In this document: in pieces, positions 49,681 to 57,795 of the stretch
How the letters are laid out: each line of letters starts with the position of its first letter
How positions within the stretch are numbered: the first letter of the stretch is position 1
Assembly: GCA_903919975.1 (NCBI GenBank)
Contig: CAIXKE010000097.1
Coordinates: 1-64,000, forward strand
From: Akkermansiaceae bacterium
GTDB lineage: Bacteria > Verrucomicrobiota > Verrucomicrobiia > Verrucomicrobiales > Akkermansiaceae
Length of the DNA stretch: 64,000 bases
Direction: 5' to 3'
Position numbers and translations under genes: made by a program
Notes under the pieces: model-generated
Seen by the model: only the letters and a program-made list of their open reading frames with translations
Told to the model about the DNA's origin: nothing
The model's database searches: none

Positions 49681-49691
49681 AAAGCCGGAGC

Positions 49692-49707
49692 GCGGAATTC
49701 ATTCCGC
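49692..49707. repeat. Small palindrome at the start of the repeat region
   Basis: gcggaat-tc-attccgc is a perfect inverted repeat just after the thiG stop. It precedes the three long repeat units and could serve as a weak terminator hairpin or as part of a separate dispersed element. Confidence 0.55.
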
Positions 49708-49727
49708 AGCATAAGGATTCGGCTTGT

Positions 49728-50092
49728 CGGAGCGCGTGCATTTTGCGCGCTGCTGGATGACGGACATACTGTCCGGCGAGTCGCTTCGCGGAAGACGGGT
49801 AACAGAATGTCCCCCATCCGACAGCCGACAGAATGTCGGCGCTCCATGACGGAGCGCGTGCATTTTGCGCGCTGTTGGATGACGGACATACTGTCCGGCG
49901 AGTCGCTTCGCAGAAGACGGGTGACAGAATGCCCCCATCCGACAGCCGACAGAATGTCGGCGCTCCATGACGGAGCGCGTGCATTTTGCGCGCTGCTGGA
50001 TGACGGACATACTGTCCGGCGAATCGCTTCGCAGAAGACGGGGACAGAATGTCCCCCGCCCCAGCAGCCGACAGAATGTCGGCGCTCCGTAG
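49728..50092. repeat. Three tandem ~121-bp repeat units with internal hairpins
   Basis: Units begin at 49728, 49850 and 49971 and are almost identical. Each starts cggagcgc and ends gcgctcc, which are inverse complements, so a unit has its own terminal inverted repeats. Inside each are agcgcg...cgcgct, cggaca-tac-tgtccg and gccgaca-gaa-tgtcggc hairpins. The third unit differs slightly before its end. No coding frame is convincing. This looks like a REP/MITE-type intergenic element that expanded in tandem, not a CRISPR array, since there are no unique spacers. Confidence 0.88.
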
Positions 50093-50146: not shown

Positions 50147-52375
50147 TTATTTGCGACGTTCTTCAAGCACAACTAACCAGTTCATCATGGTGATCGGTGG
50201 CAATTCCACAGGATGCGTGATTGGCCGAAGATTCACCGTAATGCGGTCCGGCGCAAATGCCTCCCCGCTCACCGTCTTGGAATCCAATGGACGAGTAGCA
50301 TCAACGGCGTCCTCACTCGCCAGAGAGCCCACCTGCCCATCCAAATTCACAGCTCGCGGATCTACTTCCAAGCCGTAACGCTTCTCAGGAACGAACAACG
50401 AACAAGGCGGATAATACCCTTCAGCGGGCGGAGTATATCCCGTGGGGGGCGTCGTCGCATATTGGACGATGTTGAAATCATCACCGATATAAGACCGAAG
50501 ATTACTGACTAAGGAAAAACCCTTTGGAAAGGCCGTGAAATCCGCACACTCCTGCAAAACCAAACCATAGTCCAAGTCCGTGCACGGAATCGCCGGCTTA
50601 GTCAGAAAAAAACTGCCGGTGGCCGTCGTGTAATCGACGTTCACCGCAAGAGAATGATTCACCGAAGCATCATCCGCATTGAGAGAGGCTAAGAAATTTT
50701 TAAACCTCTGGGGATAAATCCAGACACACCATTGATTGGATAATGGCCGTTTCTTGATTTCGAATGGATAACTCGGCTTATAATAACCCGATTTAAAAGC
50801 ACCGACCACAGGATCGCCGAAACGGGCATTATTATAGGTCACTGAACCAGTCATGCCCATTTGATAACCAAAAACGCCACTCGCTCCGTAGGCCAAGTCC
50901 ACTACAGCGGTGCCAAAATTATAAGTAGAGTCCTCGTTACAAGCAAACAGATAGCCTGGAGGAAGGCCGGCGACACCACTTGAAATCAAGTTGATGTCCA
51001 GATTCACCCGATTGCCAGCCTTGAGGTAAGAGAAGCGCAGATGGGTCGGTTCACTATCTGTGCTGCTCTTCGTTTGTGTGATGTCCAAGCGCATCGCACA
51101 TTGAAGGGCACCCACCGAGTAGTTGTTCCAAGTGGTAGTCGATACTGTGTTAGTCTCGGCAGCGTGTGCAAGCCGGTCAAAGAAATCCGGGCCGCGGTTA
51201 ATCGGAATAAAGGCCACGCGTCCGCTTTCCGATGCAAGGGAAACAGGGAAAAACTCGCCTTCTGTCACTTGGTAGGCTTCACGCACTCCGGGCGTGAAAG
51301 GATTATCGGGGACACTTTTCCCTCCAATCATCGCATCGTTCGGCAAGGTCATTCCCCGCCGACTGGCCAGCGTAACACGGTTTTCATCATCCGCTTCAGC
51401 GACACCCAAAGCTCCCTGCACTTCCGCCTTACCCGCGAAGACTCCGCCTTTGATACTCACATTTTGCCATGCATCGCCCGAAGCATATTGACCGAGCGAC
51501 AAGAACGAAGATGCGGAAATCGCCAACTGAGAGGGAATTTCGTAAATCGAGATCACGAAGTCGCGCGGTACCTTGACGGTTGCGGTCTTATCATCGTCGT
51601 GGTCCGCCAAATCCATCGTAAAAGCCCACCAGTTGCGCTTCGCCACGAACGGGTCACCCTGCTTGGCATAACCAAAGTTGATTGCGGGATACTTTAGGAT
51701 ATTGAATTTGGAGTAAGTTGCAACAGGCAAGCCGTATGCACGATCACCATCGCCATTCAGAACTTTATCTTTCAAATAGCTTTCCGCTAGCGCCCCATAA
51801 AACTTATCGTTCGTAATAATCGGATAAGCCGAATCACGCACGGTCGTCAGGTAATCGTTCGTCTGGAGCGGAACAGGGAATCCGGTTCCGAGGCTCCGGT
51901 TGATTCCAGCTGAGGCGTAGCTGGTGTCCAAATTGTCATTAACCCCGGCAATCTGATGAAAAATCCGATTCGCGCTGGTAAGGGTTGAATCACCGGAATT
52001 TCCCTTCTTGAGTGTTGAGGCATCGAGCTTGGCGAGTAGCTCGGGCGAAATTGAAGTCCGGGCATTACTTATGGCGAGCGATTCATCGAAAATGTTCCGC
52101 CAGCGCAAGGGATTGGAAATCGTCGTGCTGGAACCGGAACCGCTTTGCATCGCGCGGATTGCACGGTTCGGGGTAATCGCCACGATCGAGCGCAAGATCG
52201 CGTCCTCCTTCTCGCTGTAGTCATTGCGCAGCTGCACTTGAGATTGCATGACCTGGGTTGCCATCGCTTGGCGATAGGTAAACACCATCAACATGGTGAG
52301 AATCGCCCCGGTGGTGAGCACTAGCACATAGGAAATGAAACCGGGTTTGCCGGGTTTAGGTGATGAGGTTTTCAT
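50147..52375 (-). CDS. Large PilX-like prepilin-cassette protein
   Basis: 742 residues. A short basic leader and one hydrophobic helix (GFISYVLVLTTGAILTMLMVFTYRQ) are followed by a long exported beta-rich region with no recognised family. The N-terminal layout is like PilX or other minor pilin-assembly proteins; the middle contains SFLSLGQYASGDAWQNVSIKGG and a KGGVFAGKAEVQG stretch that looks like a beta-helical turn. Its start overlaps the stop of the preceding prepilin in ATGA (52372-52375). It resembles the Verru_Chthon cassette style of this phylum, but I cannot confirm that family. Confidence 0.7.
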   Translation of the reverse strand: MKTSSPKPGKPGFISYVLVLTTGAILTMLMVFTYRQAMATQVMQSQVQLRNDYSEKEDAILRSIVAITPNRAIRAMQSGSGSSTTISNPLRWRNIFDESLAISNARTSISPELLAKLDASTLKKGNSGDSTLTSANRIFHQIAGVNDNLDTSYASAGINRSLGTGFPVPLQTNDYLTTVRDSAYPIITNDKFYGALAESYLKDKVLNGDGDRAYGLPVATYSKFNILKYPAINFGYAKQGDPFVAKRNWWAFTMDLADHDDDKTATVKVPRDFVISIYEIPSQLAISASSFLSLGQYASGDAWQNVSIKGGVFAGKAEVQGALGVAEADDENRVTLASRRGMTLPNDAMIGGKSVPDNPFTPGVREAYQVTEGEFFPVSLASESGRVAFIPINRGPDFFDRLAHAAETNTVSTTTWNNYSVGALQCAMRLDITQTKSSTDSEPTHLRFSYLKAGNRVNLDINLISSGVAGLPPGYLFACNEDSTYNFGTAVVDLAYGASGVFGYQMGMTGSVTYNNARFGDPVVGAFKSGYYKPSYPFEIKKRPLSNQWCVWIYPQRFKNFLASLNADDASVNHSLAVNVDYTTATGSFFLTKPAIPCTDLDYGLVLQECADFTAFPKGFSLVSNLRSYIGDDFNIVQYATTPPTGYTPPAEGYYPPCSLFVPEKRYGLEVDPRAVNLDGQVGSLASEDAVDATRPLDSKTVSGEAFAPDRITVNLRPITHPVELPPITMMNWLVVLEERRK

Positions 52376-52905
52376 TGTTGCATGGTTCCCGAGTAAGTGA
52401 TGAGTTCGCCCGCAGGTCCTGTAATGCTCATGCGCAGCACACCTTGATCTATCGTAAATTCCACATTATCCGCCTGATTCGTAACGGCCCACTCCGGATC
52501 TCCCAAGACTCCGGAGGGATACGGCACAACGTAGTAATATAGAGAGGGTCCGGTTCCACGGTTTTCAAAAGAGAGAATCGATGCCCGCATCGTTCCATCG
52601 GGCTGGCGGAAATTGAGCACCACTACCGGTGAGGTAGTCAGGCGCGGGTTTCTTCCTGCCTTTGCATCATCCAGGGAATCATGCAGGCGGAAACGGTCTG
52701 CCTTGCCCACCAGCTTGCTGACATAGGTGCTGATGATCGGTGCCTCGACCGAAAGGAATTCCTGAGCCTTGTAGATATTGAGAAAAGCGAGCTGCTGATT
52801 GAATAAGGCCAGGAGCATCGCTCCGGTCATCATGCCCATCATGATCGCCACCGTCAGTTCGACGAGTGTGAAGCCACGCAGCTTTGAGTAGTAGCTTGAT
52901 TTCAT
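52372..52905 (-). CDS. Prepilin-like protein (type IV pilin/pseudopilin signal)
   Basis: 177 residues. The prepilin motif is RG|FTLVELTVAIMMG with glutamate at +5 of the mature protein, followed by a hydrophobic helix and a globular beta domain (PVVVLNFRQPDGTMRA, GTGPSLYYYVVPYPSG). Processing by a prepilin peptidase and assembly into a type II secretion or pilus-like fibre is expected for this signal. Both ends overlap neighbours by four bases, showing tight coupling. Confidence 0.9.
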   Translation of the reverse strand: MKSSYYSKLRGFTLVELTVAIMMGMMTGAMLLALFNQQLAFLNIYKAQEFLSVEAPIISTYVSKLVGKADRFRLHDSLDDAKAGRNPRLTTSPVVVLNFRQPDGTMRASILSFENRGTGPSLYYYVVPYPSGVLGDPEWAVTNQADNVEFTIDQGVLRMSITGPAGELITYSGTMQQ

Positions 52906-53420
52906 TGGGCACGAAGTATCGTTCGAGATTTCGCATACCGCCGGTTACCCACGGTGTAAGTCATGACACTCTGGATTTTCCAAACCTTCATCGCAGCAGG
53001 ATTGGTGGACACTGTACCAACGCCACCATCGATAGGATAGTTGTTGCTATTGGGAAAGCGGGTGCGCGTCACCGTGCCAAGGATCTGCGTGTTACCAGGC
53101 AGACGGCCGATTTCCACCGAACTCTCACGGGTCGCAGGAAATGCAGGCCATGGCGAATCACTGGCCAGCAGATTTTCAAACGGGGTGCGCTCCGCATACG
53201 CCCGTTCATAAGTCATGTAGGCATCAGTCAAGGTTTGTTGTAGCCCCCATTGCCTTGGTGTCAAAATGTTGAGCGAGAGCTTGAGTAAGATCAGACCAAT
53301 GAAGGTAAGAATCGAGAGCGAGATGCCAGCTTCGATCAAGAGCATTCCGCGCCGCAGTGATCGCGCCTTGCGGAATCGAAGAAAACTCTTAAAAGTGCCG
53401 CCATGAACCGGTTGTTTCAT
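52902..53420 (-). CDS. Prepilin-like protein with atypical cleavage site
   Basis: 172 residues from the ATG at 53418-53420, the only plausible start before the motif. A 24-residue basic leader ends RRG|MLLIEAGISLSILTFIG, where methionine replaces the usual phenylalanine but glutamate +5 is kept. The globular part follows (TPRQWGLQQTLTDAYMTYERAYAERTPF quoted in part: TPRQWGLQQ). Its start overlaps by 18 bases with the start of the divergent gene at 53403, so each promoter must lie inside the other gene. Confidence 0.85.
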   Translation of the reverse strand: MKQPVHGGTFKSFLRFRKARSLRRGMLLIEAGISLSILTFIGLILLKLSLNILTPRQWGLQQTLTDAYMTYERAYAERTPFENLLASDSPWPAFPATRESSVEIGRLPGNTQILGTVTRTRFPNSNNYPIDGGVGTVSTNPAAMKVWKIQSVMTYTVGNRRYAKSRTILRAQ

Positions 53421-53999
53421 CTCTGGGCGGCGATCTCCTCGCTTTTCTTCCTCACTGCAGCTGCGGTCACGGCCCAAGCCATCCTTGAGCCGCCCTTCGG
53501 GTTGCATTGGGGAGATTCTCCGGAAAAATTGGTGGTTTGGGCTGCCCGACATTCCTTGGACGTTACGATCACCCTGCCCGGAGATCAACCCGGATTGCGG
53601 ATTCTTAAGATCAATCCCCGCAAGGGATTTCTCCCCGAGACCAAGGCCAGTGCGGTGGAGGGGCGCTTCCTCGGTGGAAAACTTTACGAACTCACCGTCC
53701 ATTATTTCGATCCGGAAGCCTCGGCAGACCTGATGCAATCCCGGTTCGACGAACTCCGCAAACAAGTCTCCCTTGAACATGGAAAAATCCTCACCAACCA
53801 ACAGCAGAGGCTGGTCGAGGATCAATTCGTAACTCGGACTCAATCGTTTCATCGGGAACCTGTAAAAGGGTTGTTCCTGCTCCTCGCATTCACCGAGGTG
53901 GAAGACTTGCTACGTAAATCCAAGGATGCACGTTTTTCGCTGATCTATCGCAACGAAAACTTCAAAAAGGATTTGGAAAAAGAACTGAAGAAACCGTGA
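53403..53999 (+). CDS. Exported protein of unknown function, divergent from the prepilin genes
   Basis: 198 residues with signal peptide MNRLFHLWAAISSLFFLTA, cleaved near AQA. A compact alpha/beta domain follows (PPFGLHWGDSPEKLVVWAA, DPEASADLMQSRFDELRKQV). No family recognised; the opening FGLHWGDS is reminiscent of small periplasmic proteins with an IWG-type start, but that is not a firm match. Its ATG overlaps the divergent prepilin ATG. The stop lies one base from the convergent gene at 54001. Confidence 0.8.
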   Translation: MNRLFHLWAAISSLFFLTAAAVTAQAILEPPFGLHWGDSPEKLVVWAARHSLDVTITLPGDQPGLRILKINPRKGFLPETKASAVEGRFLGGKLYELTVHYFDPEASADLMQSRFDELRKQVSLEHGKILTNQQQRLVEDQFVTRTQSFHREPVKGLFLLLAFTEVEDLLRKSKDARFSLIYRNENFKKDLEKELKKP

Positions 54000-54000
54000 A

Positions 54001-55101
54001 TCACTCGATCGTGGTGAACGTTCCTTTGACTTTCATCGTCCGGTCGAGATTGAAACTCACATAAGCCAAGCGGTCAGTTCCAAAGGGCGTTTTCGTGATC
54101 AATTCGATCGTCCATATTCCATCTTCTTCAAACACCGATTCATAGCCCTTCAAAACCAGGACACGACTGTTGGGCACGGAATCGTTGATGATGAGAGACG
54201 ATCCCGGAATGATCTTGCCTTCCACGCCGAGTTGGGGGTCCCCCTTGTATGCTTGAGCATAGGTCGTCGAACTCGGATAAAGATCATTCATGGTAAGTGT
54301 CAACTGGGGCGCGGAATAGCGGACCAGTTGGCCTGACGTGATTCCATTGATGGAACCATCCGCCACCGGCCAAACTTGAATAAACTTGGATTCGATCGTC
54401 ATGGGTGGGACCGAATAATCCTCCCGAATATCTGGCAGAGATTTCACGGTAAACCGCTCTTCTCCCCGGATTTTTGTCAAATTCGAACCGGGAATCGAGG
54501 TAAGACTGTAAGTCAAAGTCTGCGTTCCATTATCGGCAATGGAAGACGCGGTGAGCTGCGTGGCTTGGTTGCGGTCAATACCAACTCCAGTCCCGCCCAC
54601 CCCGTAAGATTGCACGTGGCGATAGATATTGACACTCTTTGACGCCTCGGGGTCGGTCGCTCCTTTAAGAAGACCGCCAATCACAATATCGACACTGAAC
54701 GACTGATCCGCCCGTGTTCTAGGCATTCTCGGTGTTGGAGACAATCCTTCAGCTATTTCAGCTGCAATTGCGGCTTGAGGATTGGGATCTTCCACGGTGC
54801 GGATATACACCGCGCCGCTTGGAATATAGGATGCAACGTAGTTGCTGCTGAGGAGGTATTCCGTAATAACACCAGTTGTGGGCAATGTATTCAAGGTCCA
54901 CAGCTCGAAGCGAGCACCATTCTCTTTGATCTCGAGCGCCGAAAGCTGTTCGCCATTGGCGGCAACTGAAGCCGAAGCATCCCACGCCACCGCGCTGGGT
55001 GTTTGGAATTGTCGGATAAGATTGATGTAATTATCAGATTCAGCGGCGTAGGCCAAACCGCATGAAAACGACGCAAAAATGATAGAATATGGAATTTTCA
55101 T
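54001..55101 (-). CDS. Exported protein of the prepilin cassette, unknown family
   Basis: 366 residues with signal peptide ending near CGLAYAAE. Long beta-rich region, with a proline-rich turn near 120 (GLSPTPRMPRTRADQ), SVDIVIGGLLKGATDPE, and a final fibre-like domain (TIELITKTPFGTDRLAYVSFNLDRTMKVKGTF, beginning TIELITKTPFG). No family recognised. It is 9 bases from the next gene upstream and in the same orientation as the prepilins beyond the inserted plus-strand gene. Confidence 0.75.
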   Translation of the reverse strand: MKIPYSIIFASFSCGLAYAAESDNYINLIRQFQTPSAVAWDASASVAANGEQLSALEIKENGARFELWTLNTLPTTGVITEYLLSSNYVASYIPSGAVYIRTVEDPNPQAAIAAEIAEGLSPTPRMPRTRADQSFSVDIVIGGLLKGATDPEASKSVNIYRHVQSYGVGGTGVGIDRNQATQLTASSIADNGTQTLTYSLTSIPGSNLTKIRGEERFTVKSLPDIREDYSVPPMTIESKFIQVWPVADGSINGITSGQLVRYSAPQLTLTMNDLYPSSTTYAQAYKGDPQLGVEGKIIPGSSLIINDSVPNSRVLVLKGYESVFEEDGIWTIELITKTPFGTDRLAYVSFNLDRTMKVKGTFTTIE

Positions 55102-55110
55102 AATTTTGGT

Positions 55111-55752
55111 TCAGGGTTTAGATTTTGGTTGAGATACTTCAACAGGAACTTTAGGAGGCAACACGGATATCGGCCCGCCTTGATAGGTTGCGATGATCAA
55201 GTTGCCGGACTTTACGATTTTCTTTTGGGTTTCCTCGGGGAGAGGGCTATTGCCTTCCGCCTGGGGCTGTGTGACTTCCACTGTGGTGATCCAACCGCGG
55301 TTGAGTGCGTAAAACGCCGCCCAACCCATAAGTTTGGATCCCCTTTGGTAAGTGAGGCGACCAGCCATGGTTTTGGGGATTTGTATAACCGCCCGCTTCG
55401 GTACCAAGGTCGCCATCCCGTTGAAACAAATGATGTCCGATTGGGCGAGCAAACTTGGGGGTGATTCGGTCTTCTCAGCCTCGGCATCTTTCGCCAGATC
55501 GGCACCCTTCCCTGCATTGACGCCTTTCCCTAGATCGGAGCCTTTCGCGGGATCGGAGCCCTTCACCGGGGTGCCAGATTTAACCGCGGCCAGCTTGCGC
55601 ATCGGATCTTCCTGCGCCGCCTTACGATACTGCAAGGACAACTCATCATGGGTAGTCGCGTCACGCATCGGTGGCTTGGCAGATGCTGTCAAGGCTCCTA
55701 ACAGGGAAATTGCAATCCAAGGTTTCATTATGGGAATGGGAGAAATTATCAT
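55111..55752 (-). CDS. Exported protein with GSDPAKG-type repeats
   Basis: 213 residues if it starts at the ATG overlapping the previous stop (ATGA, 55749-55752); an internal ATG at 55728 gives 205 and a tidier leader. After the signal peptide there is a repetitive linker near 60-95 (GSDPAKG, GSDLGKG, NAGKG, ADLAKD) and then a small globular domain (SDIICFNGMATLVPKRAVIQ, GRLTYQRGSKLMGW). No family recognised. The repeats suggest a flexible tether within the envelope. Confidence 0.75.
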   Translation of the reverse strand: MIISPIPIMKPWIAISLLGALTASAKPPMRDATTHDELSLQYRKAAQEDPMRKLAAVKSGTPVKGSDPAKGSDLGKGVNAGKGADLAKDAEAEKTESPPSLLAQSDIICFNGMATLVPKRAVIQIPKTMAGRLTYQRGSKLMGWAAFYALNRGWITTVEVTQPQAEGNSPLPEETQKKIVKSGNLIIATYQGGPISVLPPKVPVEVSQPKSKP

Positions 55753-56615
55753 TTGCGTTCGTCGTCAACCCCGCCTGAAGGATCGATCGCACCATTCGGG
55801 CCGCCCGATCCTTTGCCGGGATTCGAGGAATCGACTCCATCGAGGTTGTTGCCATGGCCGTTGTTCGAATGCTTGGAGCTAAGGGTCACCAGCAACACTT
55901 GATCTTGGTAGTCAAAGGTGTCGTGCGCATGATCCACATTGCCAAGTTCCATCAAAACAAGCACACTGAGCGGGCCGATTTTCACTTTGCCTGATGCATC
56001 GAGATATGGCTTGAGGTAACTGGCCAAGCTAGGCGACTGCCCTAGGGGAAAATGGGTCGGCGGAGTATCGCCGTTGACCAATGATACAACCTGCTGATTC
56101 GAGCTCTGCGTTGTGTAAAACGGGCTCCAAACGCCATCTTGCACATACCGACCGCCGAAATCGATGGTGGTGTTCGCGGGAAGCTTCTTAATATAAAGCG
56201 AATAGGAGGAATCCACATCTGGTTGGGTGCCGTAAAAGAGCTGCTTGTAAGATTCTCCATTCACACTCATCCGTGCCTCGGTATTGAGCGGCGTGGCACC
56301 TTGGGCGGGATTGGACGAAGTAATTCCTGTTCCAACCGGTTGGACGGAGACAAACATGGGTTTAGTCAGATAGAGTGTGCCGGGAGGATTGATTGTAGCC
56401 ACATCACTCACCTTGCTGGGATAGAGAATGTTCCACTTCAGAGTCGGTTTAGAACCTGTCTGCACAATGGTTGGAGAAGCCGTCATGATCCCGGAGGGAG
56501 AGGCCGGAATCCGGTCGGGGGGAGAGGAGCCACTACCGGGAGCAGCAAAGGTGGCATAGGATCCAAGGCCGCAGATGGCGATGGTTGAAACAGCAATTTT
56601 ACAATTGGTTTTCAT
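55749..56615 (-). CDS. Exported beta-rich protein with Gly/Asn-rich tail
   Basis: 288 residues: signal peptide (cleaved near ATFAA), proline/serine linker, a beta-sandwich-like body (LKWNILYPSKVSDVATIN, SYSLYIKKLPANTTIDFGG), and from about 248 a low-complexity tail rich in glycine, asparagine and aspartate (SKHSNNGHGNNLDG). I recognise no family. Its body could be a pilus-associated adhesin or shaft subunit. It is coupled to the repeat protein downstream by a four-base overlap. Confidence 0.75.
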   Translation of the reverse strand: MKTNCKIAVSTIAICGLGSYATFAAPGSGSSPPDRIPASPSGIMTASPTIVQTGSKPTLKWNILYPSKVSDVATINPPGTLYLTKPMFVSVQPVGTGITSSNPAQGATPLNTEARMSVNGESYKQLFYGTQPDVDSSYSLYIKKLPANTTIDFGGRYVQDGVWSPFYTTQSSNQQVVSLVNGDTPPTHFPLGQSPSLASYLKPYLDASGKVKIGPLSVLVLMELGNVDHAHDTFDYQDQVLLVTLSSKHSNNGHGNNLDGVDSSNPGKGSGGPNGAIDPSGGVDDERK

Positions 56616-56711
56616 GGCGTTTTAACAGTTTGGGATTTGGTCGGGGTTGAGCTTAATCGGGGTCGGGTTTGTGATGTGAAATTGTATGATAGAGATATCA
56701 GAATGAAAGGT

Positions 56712-57506
56712 TCAAGGTTGTGGCAAGGCAAGGCGACCGGTCCAGTCACGCCATGGACCTACGGGCACCTGCTGTTCGTCCATAAAACGCCACTCAACAC
56801 GCTCTCCGCTGCGGAGCTTCAGAAAATCACGGACGGCCGGGCTAATGTCGATGCCAGCCGACTGGTTTTGGTTCGAACGGGGGGATTCATTACCGAAAAC
56901 GTATTGCCAATGATCGACCTCGAACGGTCCGACATCCTCCCATTGTGCGTAACAGACTTGGCCGGCATGATGAATCGCCACCCAGCGGCCCTTACAGACC
57001 GAAATGCCGTCACCACGATAATCTTCCCAGAACCAGGGAATCACTTCCGATGCTTCCGGGCGGTGGACTCCACCTTTCGCGACATCATTGTAGGGCAGCG
57101 CGATGTAAAAAGGATTGAGCTGCGGCGTGAAACCAGCAGGCGCCCAGCCATTGCGATGATCCGGTTGATCATAGCCACCGAAATTTTCCTGCCAGTTTTG
57201 ATCCCATGCACTCTTGTTATTGGGAGTCGGATTGTTCTCGGTCGGCAATTCCCCCACCCAGAACACGGTCGCGGCCACGTTACGCTTCCACGGCGTTGAA
57301 TCGCGCATCGATTCCCGGGATGACTCGATAACCACCCGCGCCGCCGAGGGAATGCCATAGGGATCGCTCAAAGCAGGCAGCGCTTCCCGGCGATTTTCCA
57401 GAAATCGCTCGTGAACTCCAGACAACCGATCCGTCAGGCGCGCACCAGAAGCCGATCCCAAGAGGGCGACAGTGGTAATTCCAAACGCTAAACGGTAAAC
57501 ATTCAT
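56712..57506 (-). CDS. Exported double-psi-barrel-like (RlpA-type) protein
   Basis: 264 residues from the ATG at 57504-57506, with a signal peptide (ITTVALLGSASGA). The central and C-terminal part reads like a double-psi barrel: GVCYAQWEDVGPFEVD-type stretch (YAQWEDVGPFEVD), then AGIDISPAVRDFLKLRSGE. The VGPF and IDISPAV pieces match the RlpA core, which binds naked peptidoglycan strands. Tryptophan- and asparagine-rich loops are unusual for RlpA. It is the first gene of the prepilin cassette on the minus strand. Family call is moderate. Confidence 0.6.
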   Translation of the reverse strand: MNVYRLAFGITTVALLGSASGARLTDRLSGVHERFLENRREALPALSDPYGIPSAARVVIESSRESMRDSTPWKRNVAATVFWVGELPTENNPTPNNKSAWDQNWQENFGGYDQPDHRNGWAPAGFTPQLNPFYIALPYNDVAKGGVHRPEASEVIPWFWEDYRGDGISVCKGRWVAIHHAGQVCYAQWEDVGPFEVDHWQYVFGNESPRSNQNQSAGIDISPAVRDFLKLRSGERVEWRFMDEQQVPVGPWRDWTGRLALPQP

Positions 57507-57795
57507 AGTTTTTGACAATCTTTTAGAAATACCTGTCACATCAATTAACAGTTACACTAAAATTTAAATTCATCTTAACAAGGAAATTCTACTTTCTTTG
57601 AAAGATAAGAAAAGCCCCGGAAAAAACTTTATCTGTTCTTAATCAGCTAGTTACGACTATTTAAGGCCGCGACTACCTCAATCCCTATGATATTTTTTCT
57701 AAAAACATCGAATCGCGGGCAAGAATCCGTGGCGACCATCGCCACAGTTCCAAGGTTAAAATTCCATGTGATCACACAGTAAGCCGTCACCCTGC

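Follow-up and report, generated by a model that had tools for sequence, protein, structure and literature searches.

Layout of the cassette and signatures of its pilins

The window examined here is a 64,000-nucleotide stretch of DNA from an Akkermansiaceae bacterium (GenBank assembly GCA_903919975.1, contig CAIXKE010000097.1, positions 1 to 64,000, forward strand). It contains a cassette of three prepilin genes and four genes for exported proteins, which run on the minus strand from 57506 to 50147. A first-pass annotation, made from the sequence alone, had called these seven open reading frames (ORFs) as one cassette, and all seven are present as called. It missed, however, a plus-strand gene at 53403–53999 that splits the cassette in two (Table 1). 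We consider it probable that the unit 53420→50147 encodes the tip or priming complex of a retractile type IV pilus and that the unit 57506→54001 provides its non-pilin tip partners.

The three pilin genes follow the usual order for such sets, V-like, then W-like, then X-like. Each of the three proteins has a class III leader with Gly-1 and a hydrophobic N-terminal helix, and P0001 also has a conserved C-terminal strand. The Gly-1 cleavage site is present in all 44 members of the P0001 family, none of which has Glu5. In the P0002 family Gly-1 is found in 37 of 39 members and Glu5 in all 39, and in the P0003 family each residue is found in 22 of 23. The tip member of GspI-J-K/PilV-W-X sets, PilX or GspK, is the one that lacks Glu5 (PMC7541494), and the leader and Glu5 pattern of P0003-P0002-P0001 is the pattern of those sets. 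The earlier call of two prepilins and a PilX-like protein of 742 residues is supported. In a crude hydropathy and cleavage check, the other four minus-strand proteins carry Sec-type signal peptides. Overlaps of 4 nt join P0007 to P0006, P0003 to P0002 and P0002 to P0001.

The plus-strand frame, P0004, is coding: across nine species its divergence by codon position is 0.28/0.20/0.51, with zero stops, whereas the antisense extension of P0003 contains stops and has no signal of purifying selection. P0003 is therefore assigned the start at 53420. A 316-aa version of P0003 starting at 53852 was rejected, as purifying selection acts on the overlapping plus-strand frame. The 5′ ends of P0003 and P0004 overlap by 18 nt on opposite strands, and the P0004 stop abuts that of P0005. 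Because P0004 lies on the plus strand between P0005 and P0003, the cassette consists of two units, 57506–54001 and 53420–50147. P0008 has an alternative GTG start at 57539. Scans of the cassette for sigma-70-like promoters and terminators gave matches at chance level only.

Table 1. Features of the cassette in the window
Feature	Position	Strand	Length	Description
P0001	50147..52375	-	742 aa	GspK/PilX-type large pilin (putative tip pilin)
Lectin-like insert in P0001	50774..50956	-	residues ~474–534	
P0002	52372..52905	-	177 aa	PilW/GspJ-type minor prepilin, G/FTLVE
P0003	52902..53420	-	172 aa	PilV/GspI-type minor prepilin, G/MLLIE
P0004	53403..53999	+	198 aa	Conserved Sec-exported protein
P0005	54001..55101	-	366 aa	Exported; predicted tandem Ig/FnIII-like beta sandwiches; candidate non-pilin tip partner
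P0006	55111..55752	-	213 aa	Exported; low-complexity linker and conserved C-terminal domain
P0007	55749..56615	-	288 aa	Exported, beta-rich; NNGHGNNxDGVDSSNPG module encoded by the 3′ end (55752–55874)
P0008	56712..57506	-	264–275 aa	Exported; RlpA/double-psi-barrel-like motifs WEDVGPF and GIDISPAVRDFL

The gene order is conserved far beyond chance. A search across Verrucomicrobiota, which the first-pass annotation had proposed, found the order 8-7-6-5-3-2-1 in about 20 other Haloferula, Luteolibacter and Akkermansiaceae loci, and more distant members across the order Verrucomicrobiales keep the core 6/7-5-3-2-1. In the distant loci P0004 is often missing, P0005 and P0003 then being directly adjacent; P0004 is a lineage-specific insertion between the two. 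P0008 is mostly confined to Akkermansiaceae, and both genes are lineage-level additions to the cassette. The P0001 profile matches 110 of 289 genomes of the order, and in a sample of 387 genomes of the phylum it matches 18, every one inside the order. The 3-2-1 pilin unit is tandemly duplicated in two loci (L010, L012) and the 7-(6)-5 exported unit in two others (L004, L016). The two units thus behave as separate modules, and the duplications suggest that one cell may have alternative pilus tips.

No protein of the cassette scores above the cut-off of any Pfam or NCBIfam family. P0002 alone reaches generic prepilin models, just below the cut-off (N_methyl 0.0012), and PDB sequence searches returned nothing useful. 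The exported partners are therefore of unrecognised family, as the first-pass annotation had stated, and the observation that it had named as contrary evidence, a direct match of all proteins to a described pilus or secretion family, was made in neither database.

Its comparison with Verru_Chthon cassettes fared worse. The cassette could be a Verru_Chthon-type prepilin cassette, that is, a diverged family member with a separate surface function: both are verrucomicrobial and encode a large PilX-like protein beside prepilins, the genome holds seven proteins of about 1000–1250 aa with a weak Verru_Chthon_A N terminus, and contig C23 holds a second V-W-X triad. However, TIGR02600 and its sister models are unmatched by all 44 members of the P0001 family at E≤0.1, P0002 and P0003 have no match at E≤10, and comparison of P0001 with the large paralogues gave a profile–profile probability of 4.5%, over the N-terminal helix only. 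Moreover, the genomic partner of the cassette is a different one, a PilT/PilB/PilC cluster described below. We regard this reading as very unlikely; kinship with TIGR02596/02598/02599/02600 is largely refuted at the level of sequence and is not supported beyond a generic pilin N terminus.

At least six PilX/GspK-like paralogues of about 1200 aa, with the N terminus G/FALVVTLSLMILL, are encoded on contigs C47, C64, C26, C3, C66 and C45 (L089–L094). Most are followed by an exported protein of about 230–280 aa. They have no database family name and resemble Verru_Chthon A weakly, at the N terminus only. The C23 triad (L088:5144–9376) comprises V-W-X-like prepilins of 170, 249 and 995 aa, none of which strongly matches a family.

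Linkage to a PilT-bearing pilus cluster

The cassette itself contains no secretin or assembly ATPase, as had been noted, but its likely machine is encoded elsewhere in the genome, on contig C66. The proposal that it would borrow a core machine can be narrowed: most likely it serves one identifiable PilT-bearing pilus, not an arbitrary machine, and in many relatives it is physically linked to that pilus. The C66 cluster encodes a PilB-type ATPase and a distinct PilT-type ATPase (PF00437), together with PilC, a 585-aa secretin, prepilins, an ABC pair and a 590-aa protein. In 9 of 20 distant loci the cassette adjoins orthologues of this cluster (L101, L104, L105, L108, L110, L111, L113, L115 and L117), its neighbours being PilT, PilB, PilC, prepilins and the ABC pair and, in some, the 585-aa secretin. 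In the lineage of the window, the cassette has become separated from the other pilus genes.

Co-occurrence was examined in the 289 genomes of the order, with the 590-aa protein as the marker of the C66 cluster. The marker is present in 102 genomes, 101 of which also have P0001; nine genomes have P0001 alone and one has the marker alone. The two lie within 30 kb of each other in 42 genomes, and outside the family of the window this holds for 35 of 58. P0005 is found in 108 genomes and shares 106 of them with P0001. Pilus and putative tip operon thus occur, with the exceptions just given, together or not at all; both P0001 and the C66 marker are missing from Akkermansia-like genomes (g2).

Other filament systems are encoded elsewhere in the genome: contig C41 carries a type II secretion system (T2SS) that includes GspG-H-I-J-K, C73 carries the MUL2 locus, and C69 a related secretin. 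The GspI-J-K-like signature of the triad and the four exported proteins encoded alongside would also fit a substrate-specific T2SS pseudopilus tip, with proteins 5–8 as secreted cargo; the genome encodes a T2SS and, on C57, additional GspE/GspF-like pairs. That system can do without the triad, however, because the C41 cluster has GspG-H-I-J-K of its own, and the cluster to which the cassette is linked, and with which it co-occurs, includes a PilT-type ATPase; a T2SS normally has no retraction ATPase. Among GspH, GspI, GspJ and GspK models, the only hit of the cassette pilins was GspH for P0002, at 0.053. A T2SS tip therefore appears quite unlikely.

Still less probable, to the point of being extremely unlikely, is that the cassette belongs to the Amuc_1098–1102/MUL2 attachment pilus of the same family, which is described as type IV-like, as serving attachment to glycans rich in fucose and as conserved in Verrucomicrobiales (PMC13174399). 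The two have in common type IV-like machinery and a proposed attachment role. However, MUL2 has its own locus on C73, in which a 334-aa protein matches Amuc_1100 (E 9e-19), a 210-aa protein matches Amuc_1102 (E 3e-34) and an 895-aa secretin follows; homologues of Amuc_1100, Amuc_1102, PilM and the TPR-secretin are located there and not in or beside the cassette. An assignment of the C66 cluster itself as the Amuc_1098–1102 locus was rejected for the same reason. In addition, the secretins of two Akkermansia-like genomes match those of C69 and C73 over most of their length and that of C66 only over a short common core. MUL2 is retained in Akkermansia, whereas the Akkermansia-like genomes lack the cassette. 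Synteny, co-occurrence and these secretin comparisons place the cassette, most likely, with the PilT-bearing pilus of the C66 type rather than with MUL2 or the T2SS.

Predicted fold and lectin-like insert of P0001

Structure prediction, suggested in the first-pass annotation for each protein, succeeded to different degrees. The P0005 model consists of tandem Ig/FnIII-like sandwiches with a predicted local distance difference test (pLDDT) score of 78.5, whereas the P0001 model is weak. A Foldseek search with the whole P0001 model found no significant match. Its sole wide structural match in the PDB is ComZ (6qvi; Z 6.1 over 264 residues at 4.7 Å, from a low-confidence model), the remaining matches being to single domains. 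ComZ is a GspK-like pilus-tip pilin of Thermus with a large beta-solenoid insert (PMC6561018), and the likeness of the P0001 model to it suggests that P0001, too, may be a tip pilin.

The best-predicted part of P0001 (pLDDT 84–89) is an insert. The region of residues ~456–545 measures about 90 residues in most of the close relatives, against about 31 in those more distant; the insert is also missing in two homologues of the same genus (L048 and L049). Its best structural match in the PDB is the rhamnose-binding lectin 5h4s (Z 6.2 over 60 residues at 2.4 Å). When a profile of the insert alone was compared with all PDB sequences, 5h4s again came first (E 0.0012, all three domains) and CSL3, which is related to it, third. 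In CSL3 the sugar at the primary site is contacted by Glu7, Tyr27, Asn74, Asp79, Gly83 and Lys86 (PMC3269628), and the contacts in SUL-I include Glu7, Asn71 and Asp76 (PMC10377782). The counterparts of the CSL3 contacts in the insert are E481, Y496, N516, D521, G525 and K528. Among 21 close relatives Y496 is invariant and each of the other five is present in 20. The spacing of the last four, N-5-D-4-G-3-K, is identical to that in CSL3, and such an N-to-K spacing arose among conserved positions in 1 of 20,000 shuffles. The R of YGR and the C of DPC are not conserved. The insert thus has the motif E...AYG...N-x4-D-P-x2-G-x2-K of the rhamnose-binding lectins (SUEL/RBL: SUL-I, CSL3 and the lectin domain of latrophilin); unlike them, it is embedded in a bacterial pilin. 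In one P0001 homologue (L013) the insert is kept and the motif is degraded, with FISSGSVGG in place of FGDPLVG, possibly a natural loss of the predicted sugar site.

These features bear on another reading, in which P0001 would be the DNA receptor at the tip of a competence pilus like that of Thermus, with its ComZ and PilA2. PilT-bearing retractile type IV pilus machines drive DNA uptake in many bacteria, and the best wide match of P0001 is ComZ itself. Like the cassette, the Thermus pair places a small GspI-like pilin next to a large GspK-like tip pilin that has a big domain inserted in it. However, the ComZ insert is a DNA-binding beta-solenoid whereas that of P0001 is predicted to be a lectin-like sandwich of about 60 residues, whose conserved residues correspond to sugar contacts; identity between the two proteins is about 10%, in a low-confidence model. 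We therefore consider a competence tip unlikely. Distant relatives lack the insert, and the ligand of their tip may be a different one.

Tip pilins of modular build, bearing a lectin or a vWA module, have been described (PMC8179133). PilB (vWA) and PilC (ConA-type lectin) of Streptococcus sanguinis resemble P0001 in bearing a ligand-binding module on a minor pilin that is likely to sit at the tip. In those pilins the module is C-terminal, whereas in P0001 it is inserted and the lectin type differs; P0001 belongs to a diderm verrucomicrobial system, and its insert is invisible to InterPro-style signatures.

A working model for the pilus tip

The assignment of P0003-P0002-P0001 as a priming or tip complex draws on the analogy with Myxococcus, where the pilus is primed by PilY1 and the minor pilins, which then stay at its tip (PMC7541494). 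By this analogy, prepilin peptidase would cleave the leaders of P0001–P0003 after Gly-1, and the two Glu5 pilins would assemble with the 742-aa pilin lacking Glu5 on the PilC/secretin machine encoded on C66. The assembled minor pilins would then prime polymerisation of the major pilin and leave the 742-aa protein at the tip, with PilB extending the pilus and PilT retracting it. The exported proteins of the unit 57506→54001, especially those of 366, 213 and 288 aa, may take the role of PilY1 as tip partners. In the Haloferula/Luteolibacter lineage, the lectin-like domain would, through a sugar site of the rhamnose-binding-lectin type, let the tip hold on to particles by their methyl-pentose or galactose-type glycans.

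The cassette resembles the type IVa minor-pilin/PilY1 complexes (Myxococcus PilX/PilW/FimU/PilY1; Pseudomonas FimU-PilVWXE-PilY1) in its short clustered minor pilins, its PilX-type member without Glu5, the exported non-pilin partners encoded alongside and the link to PilB, PilC, PilT and a secretin. It differs in having no profile-level sequence similarity to them, a PilX-like member of 650–750 aa, a set of three pilins, and Ig-like and other novel partners instead of a PilY1 propeller. P0004–P0008 have no Pfam match to the PilY1 beta-propeller (PF05567). A search for PilY1 across the order gave 0 of 289 genomes with no match of a positive control, and is hence uninformative on its absence.

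Several points weigh against the tip-complex reading. In this genome the C66 cluster is not on the contig of the cassette, such that the link between them comes from relatives, and the co-occurrence statistic (Fisher p ~1e-65) is not corrected for phylogeny. In five loci (L100, L103, L107, L112 and L114) the exported partners are missing from the immediate neighbourhood. The P0001 model has a pLDDT of only 58, and the Z score of the ComZ match is below the comfort level of the tool, 8. As for the insert, the E value of its profile match rests on a motif of about 20 residues. The insert has neither the four disulfides found in rhamnose-binding lectins of animals nor their conserved set of cysteines; it is shorter than these lectins (about 60 versus about 95 residues), and the Pfam SUEL/Gal-lectin model is unmatched by eight inserts even at E≤10. 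For these last reasons the insert is called lectin-like and not filed as a member of the family, and it is a candidate sugar-binding domain. Nonetheless, the cassette is largely explained, most likely as the tip/priming operon of a machine whose kind is known, with protein families that are unrecognised and a lectin-like insert that was unexpected.

Rhamnose-binding lectins are known mainly from animals. In a bolder version of the model, to which we give somewhat less than an even chance, free-living Verrucomicrobiales would grab particles rich in methyl-pentose or galactose polysaccharides with a GspK-like tip pilin that has a built-in, disulfide-free domain of this type and Ig-like exported partners instead of PilY1, and in the gut genus Akkermansia this whole pilus would have been lost and the MUL2 machine alone retained. 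A putative glycan-gripping tip would fit the particle-attached lifestyle of Akkermansiaceae reported to use fucose-rich glycans (PMC13174399). If the model is correct, these order-restricted exported proteins without names would have a concrete job, in the tip of one particular type IV pilus that is distinct from the well-studied Amuc_1098–1102/MUL2 locus. The insert would add a lectin type to the modular tip pilins, one missed by current domain databases. It also yields a testable prediction, sugar binding through E481, N516 and D521, for how particle-attached, fucose- and rhamnose-degrading Verrucomicrobia hold glycans.

Among the other exported proteins, the likeness of P0008 to RlpA/double-psi-barrel proteins is a tentative one at the level of motifs, Pfam and the PDB giving no match. 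A profile comparison of P0005 with P0007 did not support homology between the two (6% probability). A module of about 35 residues, NNGHGNNxDGVDSSNPGxGxGGPNGxxDPSGxxDDE, forms the C terminus of P0007 and recurs in an orphan paralogue on C73 (L131:9498–9620). The same mobile Asn/Gly/Asp module stands in the middle or at the N terminus of the P0005 homologues of other species (L106, L116, L118 and L102). No mention of it was found in the literature. Directly downstream of P0001, positions 49689–50088 consist of tandem repeats with units of 121–122 bp; three 111-nt copies at 77–100% identity and a partial fourth give rise to spurious overlapping ORFs. Proteins that resemble sulfatases and fucosidases in sequence are also encoded in the window.

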